A DNA stretch of 64,000 bases from Acidobacteriota bacterium (GTDB lineage: Bacteria; Acidobacteriota; Vicinamibacteria; Vicinamibacterales; JAKQTR01), in contig JAPKZQ010000046.1 in NCBI GenBank assembly GCA_026393675.1, positions 1 through 64,000 of the forward strand, in the 5' to 3' direction. Below the pieces are notes generated by a model. It did not search any database, was not told where the DNA came from, and saw only the letters and a list, made by a program, of their open reading frames with translations. Shown here piece after piece: positions 36,414 to 50,032 of this stretch. Every line of letters begins with the position of its first letter. The stretch's first letter is position 1. Position numbers and translations under genes: made by a program.

Positions 36414-37481
36414 CTATTCGCGCGGTTTGAAGTCGCGGATGATCTTCGAGATCGTCCGCGCCTGGCGCTTACGCTCCTGCCCGGCCCGCTCGTCCTGCTG
36501 GCTGGCCAGAAACGCCCGTTCTCTGTGCAGCTCACGGTAGCTCTCCAGCCGGCCGCCATCGAGCTGACCTGCGTCGGCGGCGGCCTTCACCGCGCACCCC
36601 GGTTCGGCGTCGTGCCGGCAATCGCGAAACCGGCACCCCCCGCCAAGCACTTCGATATCGTCAAAGGTGGCGTCCATCCCGCCGGCCCCGTCCCACAACT
36701 GCAGCTCACGCAGGCCGGGCGTGTCGATGAGCAGCGCGCCGCCCGTGACGATGATGAGTTCCCGATTCGTCGTTGTGTGACGGCCACGATGATCACTGGC
36801 GCGAACCGCTCGCGTGGGTTGCATCTGGTGCCCCACCAGGCGGTTCACCAGCGTGGACTTGCCGACGCCCGACGACCCCAGCAGCGCGATGGTCCGGCCG
36901 GCAATCAGGTAGGGGTCAAGGACGTCGAGGAGCCCGTCATCCTTCGTGCTGACAGCGTGCACCGGCGCCGTCTGCGCGACCGCCTGGACTTCCCGCACCC
37001 GGGCTTCGACATCGGCGCAGATGTCTGCCTTGTTCAGGACGACCACCGGGGAGGCGCCGCCGTCGCGTGCGGTGATCAGATACCGCTCGATGCGGCGCAG
37101 GTTGTAATCGCCGTCGAGCCCCATCATCAGAAACACCGTGTCGATGTTGGCCGCCACCACCTGCTCGGTGGTTTCGCGCCCCGCGACCTTCCGGGAGAAT
37201 TTGCTCCTGCGGGGCAGGATGACCTGAATGACGCCGCGGCGGCCCCCCGCGACCGGGGTGATGGCCACCCAGTCGCCAACCGCGGGAAACTCGTGGCGGC
37301 CGGCCGCGCGGTGGCGCAGCCCGCCCGCCACCGTCGCCAGCGACTCGCCGTCGGCGGCCTGCACCGTGTAGATGTGCTGGTGCTCGAGGGTCACGCGCGC
37401 CGCCGTGAGGCCGCGCCGGCCGTGCTCCTCGAAGTGCTGCTCGAAAGACGCGTCCCAGCCGAGATCCCGGAGATCCACCAT
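36414..37481 (-). CDS. rsgA: Ribosome small-subunit-dependent GTPase A
   Basis: I start at ATG 37481 (355 aa). An N-terminal OB fold (~30-110) precedes a circularly permuted GTPase: G4 NKAD (VVLNKADIC), G1 LLGSSGVGKSTLVNRLVG, G2 and G3 in TTTNRELIIV...LIDTPGLREL. The C-terminal zinc site has CRFRDCRHDAEPGC with Cys-x5-His-x-Cys-like spacing. RsgA releases RbfA and checks 30S maturation. It converges with the M14 gene (gap 2 bp). All key motifs are intact. Confidence 0.95.
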   Translation of the reverse strand: MVDLRDLGWDASFEQHFEEHGRRGLTAARVTLEHQHIYTVQAADGESLATVAGGLRHRAAGRHEFPAVGDWVAITPVAGGRRGVIQVILPRRSKFSRKVAGRETTEQVVAANIDTVFLMMGLDGDYNLRRIERYLITARDGGASPVVVLNKADICADVEARVREVQAVAQTAPVHAVSTKDDGLLDVLDPYLIAGRTIALLGSSGVGKSTLVNRLVGHQMQPTRAVRASDHRGRHTTTNRELIIVTGGALLIDTPGLRELQLWDGAGGMDATFDDIEVLGGGCRFRDCRHDAEPGCAVKAAADAGQLDGGRLESYRELHRERAFLASQQDERAGQERKRQARTISKIIRDFKPRE

Positions 37482-37664
37482 CGACGAGCGTAGCACAGGC
37501 GCCGGCGGACGCCGGAAAGAGGGTCAGGCGGCGGCGTGGTCAGCGACGACGTGTCCATCACGCTCGACGTGGAGTTAGTGCCCCGATTCCGAAATACGGC
37601 AACGGCAGTCGGGGCACCGCGCTCCGGAATCTGCTTCACACATGGCGGAGACGGACTGCTAGTG

Positions 37665-37670
37665 TAGAAT
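37665..37670 (+). promoter_or_regulatory. Candidate -10 box for the microprotein gene
   Basis: TAGAAT preceded by a TG dinucleotide, 54 bp upstream of the ATG at 37725. No good -35 box is present. It resembles the TAGAAT/TACAAT boxes before other genes in this window. Confidence 0.35.
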
Positions 37671-37724
37671 CGCTCTGTCAACGCCCCTGCACTGACAACA
37701 TCGTCGTCAATGGAGAAACACGTC

Positions 37725-37793
37725 ATGGCGAAATGCGGAGGATGCGGAACCGGTAAGAAGACCACTGTGAAGAAGACCGCAAAGAAGCGGTAA
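37725..37793 (+). CDS. 22-residue Cys- and Lys-rich microprotein
   Basis: The peptide is MAKCGGCGTGKKTTVKKT followed by AKKR. It has a CGGC (CxxC) motif at residues 4-7 and a basic tail resembling histone-H1-like KTxKK repeats. An SD-like GGAG lies 9 nt before the ATG, a -10 box 54 bp upstream, and a strong palindromic element directly after the stop. It could bind a metal and nucleic acid or RNA. Being so short, it may be missed by gene finders. Real translation is likely but unproven. Confidence 0.5.
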   Translation: MAKCGGCGTGKKTTVKKTAKKR

Positions 37794-37799
37794 TGCACG

Positions 37800-37863
37800 C
37801 GTAGGGGCAACCCCCCGTGGTTGCCCCTCGTCATTCGGGCGGGCACAGGGACCCGCCCCTACG
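37800..37863. repeat. 64-bp two-hairpin palindromic repeat, family Z, full copy
   Basis: Terminal inverted repeats cgtaggggc (37800-37808) and gcccctacg (37855-37863) enclose two hairpins: aggggcaacc/ggttgcccct (37803-37828) and gggcggg/cccgccc (37837-37858). It lies between convergent genes and could also end transcription, though no T-tract follows. A 27-nt segment recurs, inverted, between cysT and cysW. Confidence 0.75.
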
Positions 37864-37895
37864 GGTTCCTGCCGATTCCGAACGCCGAATCCCGT

Positions 37896-39581
37896 CTACT
37901 TTCCCATCATCTTGTCTCGGCGGGCCTTGAACTCGGTGCCGGGCTTCCACTCGGGAAACTTGTCAGCCTGCGCCACGCGGTATCCCATCACGTAGTAGAC
38001 CTGCAGATCCTGGACGGCTCCGGCCATGTCCCAGTCCGGACGCATGACGTCTGATGGCTTGTGATAATGCAGCGCGGTGTACTCGTCCTGGGCTTTGCGC
38101 GCCCAGCCTGCCGGCTTTCCGATCACGTCTTCGCCACCGCCCGCGTTGATGGCCGGCACTCCCTGTTTCGCAAACGGGAAATGATCCGAACGGAAGTAGC
38201 CGCCGTCCTCAGGCTTCGGATCGGGCACGAGGTGCCGCCCCTGCTCGGCCGCGGCGTCGCGTGCGTAGTCGTCCAGATCAGAGTTGCCCAACCCCACCAC
38301 CGTCAGGTCGCGCGTCTTGCCGTAGACGTTCAGCCCGTCCATGTTGATGGCGGCCAGCGTGCTTCGCAGCGGATAGAGCGGCGTGCGCGCGTAGTAGTCG
38401 GATCCGAGCAAACCCTGCTCTTCGGCCGTCACCGCCAGAAACAGCAGCGAACGCTTCGGGGCCACCGGCAGTTTCGCGTACGCCCGCGCGATCTCGATCA
38501 TCCCGCCGATGCCGGTCGCGTTGTCGAGCGCTCCGTGGTAGATCTTGTCGCCGTTGACGGGCGCCCCGATGCCGAAGTGGTCCCAGTGCGACGTGAAGAT
38601 GACGTACTCATCCTTGAGCCTGGGATCGCTGCCCACAATCTTGCCGGCCACATTACGCGAATCGATCGTGCGGATCGTATTGGCGATCGTCATCGAGGCG
38701 GTCACCCCGAGCGGCACCGGCCTGAAGTCGCGCGTGAGCGCCTGCTTCTTGAGCGCGGCGTAGTCCTGGCCGGCGAGCAGGCAGAGTGCCTTTGCCTGAT
38801 CGAGCGTGATCCAGCCTTCGATAGCCGCCCGCCCCAGCCCCTGGTCGGGCGTCAGCAGATCGAACTGTTCCTTGACCTTGCCCTGCACCACCGAGAACGG
38901 ATACCCCGCGGGCCCGGTCTCGTGCACGATCAGCACCGCGGCCGCTTTCTTCTCGGCCCCCATCTCGTACTTGTAGGTCCAGCGCCCGTAGTACGTCATG
39001 GCCCGTCCGCCGAAGACCTTGGGATCGAGTTTGGTCGGGTCCTTGGGGTCCGGCACTGGAGGATCGCCCACGAGCACGATCACCGTCTTGCCGGTAAGAT
39101 CCACGCCCTTGTAGTCGTCCCACCCATACTCCGGCGCCTGCACCCCGTAGCCCACGAAGACCACGTCGGATGCGTCGAGGCTGACGCGCGGCTGCACGCG
39201 CTTGGTCCACGCGACCACGTCGTCTTTGAACTTCAGCGTCTGCGTAACCGTCCCTTTCGCGAAGGTCAGCGATGTCGAGGGATCCGGGGTGATGCCGACC
39301 ATCGGCACCTTCTGGATGTAGGTGCCGTCCGGGTTGCCTGGCTTGAGGCCGACCTTCTTGAACTGGTCTTCGATGTACGCCACCGTCAGATCTTCACCAC
39401 GCGTGCCGGGTGCCCGGCCCTCGAACTGGTCGGACGACAGCACCTTGACGTGATCCAGCAGCGCCGGAACGCTGATCGACGGCGCCACGACCGGGAGCTT
39501 CGCCGCTTGAGCGAGCAGGCCTGCGCCGAACGCCGCGGCCAGCAGAACTCCGGACAGGATGAATGCGAGTCGTTTCGTCAT
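37896..39581 (-). CDS. Secreted M28-family zinc aminopeptidase with PA domain
   Basis: A 561-aa protein with a signal peptide at ~1-25 (LAFILSGVLLAAAFGAGLLA). A PA insert domain (~130-280) is followed by the M28 core with zinc ligands in FTSHWDHFG (His and Asp), NATGIGGMIEIAR, and VTAEEQGLLGSDYYA (Glu-Glu base and ligand). A distal His is in GEDVIGKP...YHKPSD. Expected to release N-terminal residues from peptides outside the cytoplasm. Start ATG 39581. A TACAAT -10 box lies 43 bp upstream. Confidence 0.88.
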   Translation of the reverse strand: MTKRLAFILSGVLLAAAFGAGLLAQAAKLPVVAPSISVPALLDHVKVLSSDQFEGRAPGTRGEDLTVAYIEDQFKKVGLKPGNPDGTYIQKVPMVGITPDPSTSLTFAKGTVTQTLKFKDDVVAWTKRVQPRVSLDASDVVFVGYGVQAPEYGWDDYKGVDLTGKTVIVLVGDPPVPDPKDPTKLDPKVFGGRAMTYYGRWTYKYEMGAEKKAAAVLIVHETGPAGYPFSVVQGKVKEQFDLLTPDQGLGRAAIEGWITLDQAKALCLLAGQDYAALKKQALTRDFRPVPLGVTASMTIANTIRTIDSRNVAGKIVGSDPRLKDEYVIFTSHWDHFGIGAPVNGDKIYHGALDNATGIGGMIEIARAYAKLPVAPKRSLLFLAVTAEEQGLLGSDYYARTPLYPLRSTLAAINMDGLNVYGKTRDLTVVGLGNSDLDDYARDAAAEQGRHLVPDPKPEDGGYFRSDHFPFAKQGVPAINAGGGEDVIGKPAGWARKAQDEYTALHYHKPSDVMRPDWDMAGAVQDLQVYYVMGYRVAQADKFPEWKPGTEFKARRDKMMGK

Positions 39582-49925: not shown

Positions 49926-50032
49926 ACGCCAGAGACCTGCGTCCCGGATCGGGCAACCACGGGGGGTTGCCCCTACGGCGGACTCGGGAGAGTGGGCTCG
50001 GCAGCGCGCTGGCGCGGCGGAGGACGGCATGA
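49907..50032. repeat. 107-bp insertion between cysT and cysW with 19-bp flanking duplication
   Basis: Direct repeats 49907-49925 and 50014-50032 match at 18 of 19 (gcggcggaggaYggcatga). Between them lies one hairpin of the Z family (gggcaacc/ggttgccc, 49951-49972) followed by ccctacg. Its 27 nt from 49951 to 49977 equal the reverse complement of 37800-37826. Confidence 0.75.

Follow-up and report, generated by a model that had tools for sequence, protein, structure and literature searches.

Does an open reading frame of 22 codons, standing alone between rsgA and a gene for an M28 peptidase, encode a protein and, if it does, to what kind of protein does it belong? The frame lies in a stretch of 64,000 nucleotides, referred to here as the window, and its predicted product contains 7 lysines and 1 arginine in 22 residues; both neighbouring genes are on the minus strand. 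Proteins of fewer than 30 residues are mostly invisible to annotation. In what follows, G000 denotes the host genome, G001 a genome of the same genus, and G004 a genome of another genus within the same family. We take the host's lineage to be Acidobacteriota, probably Vicinamibacterales.

The reading frame between rsgA and the M28 peptidase gene

A preliminary description of this DNA had proposed the frame together with a Shine-Dalgarno sequence (SD), a -10 box of its own and a following palindrome. The frame and the SD are present as described (Table 1). A -10-like hexamer also occurs upstream, but a consensus scan of positions 37450-37920 revealed no -35/-10 pair; the same scan found no intrinsic terminator. 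The palindrome has to be taken away from the gene. A 351-base query made partial matches at 23 other places in the host genome, all of them falling inside window positions 37788-37905, and because the palindrome is thus part of a dispersed repeat it was ruled out as a dedicated terminator. This repeat has the form GTAGGGGCAACCCCC...GGTTGCCCC...GGGCGGGCAC...GCCCCTAC, and a fragment of it is found at window positions 49951-49977.

Table 1. Features of the 22-codon gene and its surroundings, and of the related tandem genes in the host (window positions unless a contig or locus is named).
Feature	Position	Strand	Remarks
22-codon microprotein gene MAKCGGCGTGKKTTVKKTAKKR	37725..37793	+	translation, followed by stop; conserved in G001; diverged Cys/Lys peptide at same site in G004
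CGGC codons	37734..37745	+	G001 retains both cysteines; G004 has two, as CC
Lysine-rich tail KKTTVKKTAKKR	37755..37790	+	alignable with the order's lysine-rich peptides
GGAG Shine-Dalgarno	37712..37715	+	9 nt 5' of ATG; also in G001
TAGAAT, -10-like	37665..37670	+	TAGAATCG upstream in G001 and G004 too; no -35
rsgA (RsgA GTPase), upstream, divergent flank	36414..37496	-	PF03193, 4.8e-48
M28 peptidase, downstream, convergent flank	37896..39581	-	PF04389, 1.7e-46
Imperfect palindrome, dispersed-repeat copy	37797..37866		arms 70% complementary
Host tandem lysine-rich gene pair	G000:C3:62498-62713
Order-wide tandem gene locus in host, promoter and leader	L139 5402-5714 (G000:C3)

Other interpretations of the region were considered. 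A second in-frame ATG is located at 37710, 5 codons upstream of the start, and no SD was seen before it. Upstream in-frame starts and a minus-strand frame at 37391-37846 were examined as long-ORF alternatives and rejected, and the 53-residue form open in G001 is missing from G000, where the frame opens only 19 codons upstream. An RNA gene was dismissed, no Rfam family being found in the window at gathering score, and a RiPP precursor or toxin-antitoxin component was set aside, the neighbours being RsgA and an M28 peptidase and the peptide not being hydrophobic. Searches with the peptide listed no Pfam or NCBIfam family up to E 10, and no profile match to PF07382 or to the NCBIfam H1-like models was found up to the same limit.

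Conservation of frame and codon pattern in relatives had been set beforehand as the test of the gene. DNA searches of 60 genomes, host included, gave matches in 8: the host, G001 over the gene, and six genomes whose match is confined to the lysine tail. G001 encodes MAKCGGCGTGKKAAVKKTTKKR at the corresponding rsgA/M28 site, and the two coding sequences align with 60/69 identities and no gaps, so that the frame is kept without an indel. The 9 substitutions fall at 3 first, 0 second and 6 third codon positions, and spare the start, the stop and both cysteines. When 9 substitutions were placed at random, 1.4% of 100,000 trials kept start, frame and stop with no more than 3 residue changes; a P of about 0.014 from two species is modest taken alone. 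Conservation is lower in the surrounding intergenic DNA, with 51/68 identities immediately 5' of the gene (37656-37724), 34/62 and 97 gap columns further upstream (37497-37655), and 42/60 downstream (37836-37895); the end of the M28 gene aligns at 443/505. The coding sequence is thus the best conserved part of the rsgA-M28 intergenic region. Because frame and codon pattern are conserved in the sister species, we take the frame to be real, and the comparison supports a monocistronic gene for a 22-residue basic protein, the unannotated microprotein that had been suggested.

A more distant version is apparent in G004, where a lysine-rich 28-mer with two cysteines, MACCGAGKKMTAQKAAPKKAAPKKATKK, is encoded at the corresponding M28 gene, immediately ahead of its end, and is preceded by TAGAATCG and by its own SD (AGGAGGA). 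It aligns with the window peptide through CGTGKK/CGAGKK, with a score above those of all 2000 shuffles. Two cysteines are found in all three peptides; their CxxC spacing is not kept, being CGGC in G000 and G001 and CC in G004. The Cys peptide is therefore present in three of the five family genomes, all five of which have rsgA. No Cys/Lys frame was found in the stretches examined from G002 and G003, the latter having rsgA and M28 on different contigs, and in the three g2 genomes a different gene, which we take to encode a YceI-type protein, adjoins rsgA.

Among the matches examined from wider searches there were no further members with the cysteines. A protein search of 297 genomes of the phylum matched 49 at E <=10, only G000 and G001 scoring below 0.001. 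The GTDB 220 collection, from which the host and very near records were possibly left out, held 11 MAKCGGCG stretches, none of them a lysine-rich microprotein: five lie inside one 276-residue frame and the rest are 8-83 residues long and lack the lysine tail. With a looser N-terminal pattern, 11/193 class genomes matched, and the nine besides G000 and G001 were other proteins or short tail-less frames. A Cys...G-K-K pattern matched in 108/193 class genomes; among the listed matches that were extended (in-frame matches of 20 loci and 17 further regions picked by eye), peptides with 30% lysine came from G000, G001 and G004 alone. The degenerate Cys pattern also matched starts of the type MAKQCEVCGKK, which are presumably those of bL28.

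Tiny lysine-rich peptides in the order

All six of the tail-only DNA matches, from other families of the order, proved to be standalone lysine-rich genes, for example MAKKTAKKATKKKAAKKR. The host and the order carry one or two genes for such peptides of 14-32 residues, for example MAKKTAKKATKKAAKKR. We searched for the pattern MAKK...KK(R)-stop in a class sample of 193 genomes, 162 of them in the order, and found it in 91 genomes and 58/104 genera, with all 91 genomes belonging to the order; a backward control of the pattern gave 19, counted from its columns. The 131 matches listed are all a multiple of three in length, at 45-60 nt. In an even sample of the phylum, 34/396 genomes matched, 27 of them in the order of the window and 7 outside the class; 3 of these 7 had lengths that are multiples of three, as expected by chance. 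The two tandem copies in the host both encode MAKKTAKKATKKAAKKR, and their 8 differing sites are all synonymous or stop-to-stop, a pattern matched by 1 of 100,000 random trials. Composition varies freely among the order's peptides, as in AKGGKKKAGKKR and AAKKPAAAKK.

These genes lie at a recurrent locus. The genes for tgt, a HEAT-repeat/cyclophilin protein and a deoxynucleoside kinase (dNK) flank them in 10/10 contexts, and ddl is present in 9/10. The HEAT-cyclophilin protein, used as bait, matched in 30/30 genomes, 29 of which had been missed by the MAKK...KK(R) pattern, and lysine-rich small frames adjoin its gene in 19/25 loci of the order. Five of the six order loci without a small frame are from family f8, with no leader (see below) at the leader-model threshold, and the sixth (G155) lies where its contig ends. 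Small frames are clear at two (G076, G088) and doubtful at one (G070) of the five HEAT-cyclophilin loci taken from the class's other orders.

The loci examined contain 109 distinct small genes, of which 42 have the leader that marks gene A and 58 a G-run SD as in gene B. The remaining 9 have neither, and two of them are chance frames from outside the class. A T-run follows within 110 nt of the stop in 64/109. The G-run SD of gene B (e.g. GAAGGGGGGGAT; L139 5661, L118 1501) resembles the 5' arm of the gene's own terminator, and its pairing with the terminator C-run is possible. No description of the peptide family was found in titles and abstracts of the open-licence literature searched with short term lists. 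GMSC predicts frames from 30 nt (PMC11364881), and raw entries for the order's peptides may exist there.

Promoter and leader RNA of gene A

Sixty distinct leaders were picked for the motif TAATCTA[CT]AT with a lysine-rich frame after it; their -10 region is therefore given by the selection. TTGACA is present in 59 of the 60, at a spacing to TAATCT of 18 in 55 cases and 17 in 4. Downstream, a pseudoknot was drawn by eye in which GGUGG pairs with CCACC and the loop GCUCAGC pairs with GCUGAGC further downstream. On an alignment of 37 leaders (18 longer than 115 nt and 5 with insertions or a B-type start being left out), 85.7% of cells pair, with 89.4% for helix 2 and 80.5% for helix 1, and 6/12 pairs change on both sides. 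Its covariation score was reached by 0/500 shuffles and its number of pair types by 10/500; pairing falls to 26-49% when the structure is slid along the alignment. RNAalifold, a program unable to represent pseudoknots, recovered no more than 4 pairs of helix 2 (-1.59 kcal/mol), which counts against the strength of the pseudoknot.

A leader model built from helix 2 and sequence matched 120/193 class genomes; every one of these belongs to the order, and all 15 sampled families are represented. The match is single in 116 genomes and double in 4 (G035, G052, G167 and G168; f14, g25). In most f5 cases the leader leads into gene B. Rfam gave no family at gathering scores in ten tandem-gene contexts, and for two leader stretches its matches all stayed below threshold and mostly fell on the hairpins after the genes. 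Five f10 genomes (G013, G023, G033, G042, G058) keep the promoter and the start of the leader but lack a frame for gene A up to 260 nt from the -10 region (L011/L144/L191, L147/L193, L168, L190, L192), and a hairpin and T-run stand there instead in at least L147 and L192. The leader RNA in these genomes may have a function of its own.

Relationship and possible function of the window peptide

The window gene, reading MAK...KKR-stop over 22 codons, fits the standalone frame of about 14-32 codons with a MAK start and KK(R/K)-stop. It is found between rsgA and M28 and not at the tgt...HEAT-cyclophilin...dNK locus, and it has neither the gene A leader nor the gene B G-run SD, its SD being GGAG and the sole leader match in G000 lying on C3. 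Comparison with five family peptides gave scores reached by 0, 18, 162, 607 and 1104 of 2000 shuffles, the first for MAKKTAKKATKKKAAKKR of G012 and the second for MAKKTAKKATKKAAKKR of the host, with similarity that is short and of low complexity. Because start, end, size and standalone design are common to both but locus, promoter and leader differ, we infer that the window gene is likely, though unproven, to be a Cys-bearing relative of the order's lysine-rich peptides.

The same differences would be expected if the window gene were an independent microprotein specific to its genus or family, its KK-x-x-KKR tail having arisen by convergence. Low-complexity lysine tails can converge, the similarity is driven by composition, and three of the five comparisons were not clearly better than shuffles. 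We nevertheless think a separate origin rather improbable: the MAK start, the KKR-stop end and the standalone design are those of the tandem peptides, and the alignments with the host and G012 peptides do exceed those of shuffles. It is more difficult still to see the frame as an accident within a conserved small RNA or intergenic element from which no protein is made. The stretch 5' of the gene is fairly conserved, positions 37672-37870 fold somewhat better than shuffles (z -2.55, though with the palindromic repeat included), and the f10 genomes retain a leader start without gene A. Yet no substitution falls at a second position, the start, stop and cysteine codons are all intact in their meaning, and the coding sequence is the best conserved intergenic segment, which makes this very unlikely.

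A ribosomal role is a serious rival. The small lineage-specific ribosomal proteins bTHX and bS22 are very short, very basic and easily missed by annotation, and the window peptide, which is likewise tiny and basic, could similarly be ribosome-associated and thread into rRNA. Its size, charge and MAK-C-x-x-C-G...KK start, the last resembling the N-terminus of Cys-type bL28, are consistent with this role, as are its position next to rsgA, which encodes a 30S biogenesis GTPase, and the strong promoter that drives the related gene A, which would suit an abundant structural protein. On the other hand, neither neighbour of the window gene encodes a ribosomal protein, the related peptides vary in composition more freely than fixed contacts with rRNA would lead one to expect, and the 7 pattern matches outside the class are chance-like. 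On balance we judge a ribosomal role unlikely.

We give about even weight, for and against, to the reading that we prefer, in which the window gene is a real, Cys-bearing offshoot of the order-wide lysine-rich family and its product a polycation like a histone H1 tail, with cysteines that perhaps cross-link. The family's main genes, often in tandem, are those at the tgt...HEAT-cyclophilin...dNK locus, and the peptides would most likely act like detached H1-type tails, that is, as disordered polycations binding DNA, RNA or another polyanion such as polyphosphate electrostatically. As to the metal binding first suggested, a pair of cysteines is too few to fill a zinc site within one monomer; more speculatively, those of the window variant might dimerise the tail through a disulfide or a shared metal and so turn a monovalent tail into a bivalent cross-linker. 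The CGGC motif is shared with small Cys peptides (metallothionein-like peptides and the CGGC domain), but the window peptide has just two cysteines and the CxxC is not kept in G004.

Nucleic-acid binding by the window peptide is plausible by analogy with known lysine-rich tails. The order's peptides are polycations of the same type, rich in lysine and alanine (and proline), as Hc2 of Chlamydia and the C-terminal domains of AlgP and PhaF of Pseudomonas. According to one study (PMC9239181), H1-like tail peptides with KPAA repeats bind to DNA in vitro, and AlgP has a part in spacing polyP granules. The known tails differ in scale: Hc2 is 165-237 residues long (PMC2848022) and in AlgP the repeat region, 154 residues in length, is part of a larger protein (PMC9239181), whereas here whole genes mostly encode 14-32 residues. 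The two-cysteine head of the window variant is also unlike the Hc2 and AlgP tails.

Tentatively, and as a possibility that may well prove wrong, we propose that the order encodes minimal chromosomal (or ribosomal) polycations, 14-32 residues long and in many cases specified by two tandem genes at a single locus, with expression from a near-invariant strong promoter and control by a new pseudoknot leader RNA (kept in the five f10 genomes that have no peptide gene behind it), the window peptide being a later paralogue whose cysteines were gained for cross-linking or for redox or metal sensing. A coding gene of this length that occurs across all 15 families sampled in the order, at the same locus wherever its context was examined and with a nearly invariant promoter and a covarying leader, would specify one of the shortest bacterial proteins known to be deeply conserved. 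Concrete targets for study are the leader RNA, which is new, and what may be a minimal H1-like tail, and the Cys form in the window would show how an H1-like tail can gain cross-linking or sensing.

Two further genomes of f8 have enlarged versions of the tiny peptide, of 48 and 65 residues, with H1-tail-like repeats (L153 1230 and L171 1220, reverse-strand coordinates). The 65-residue version carries KKPAAKKPAVKK repeats and matches Hc2 weakly (E 0.0015; 19.1 bits, where the cut-off is 40). The f8 versions form an apparent series from minimal to H1-like peptides.
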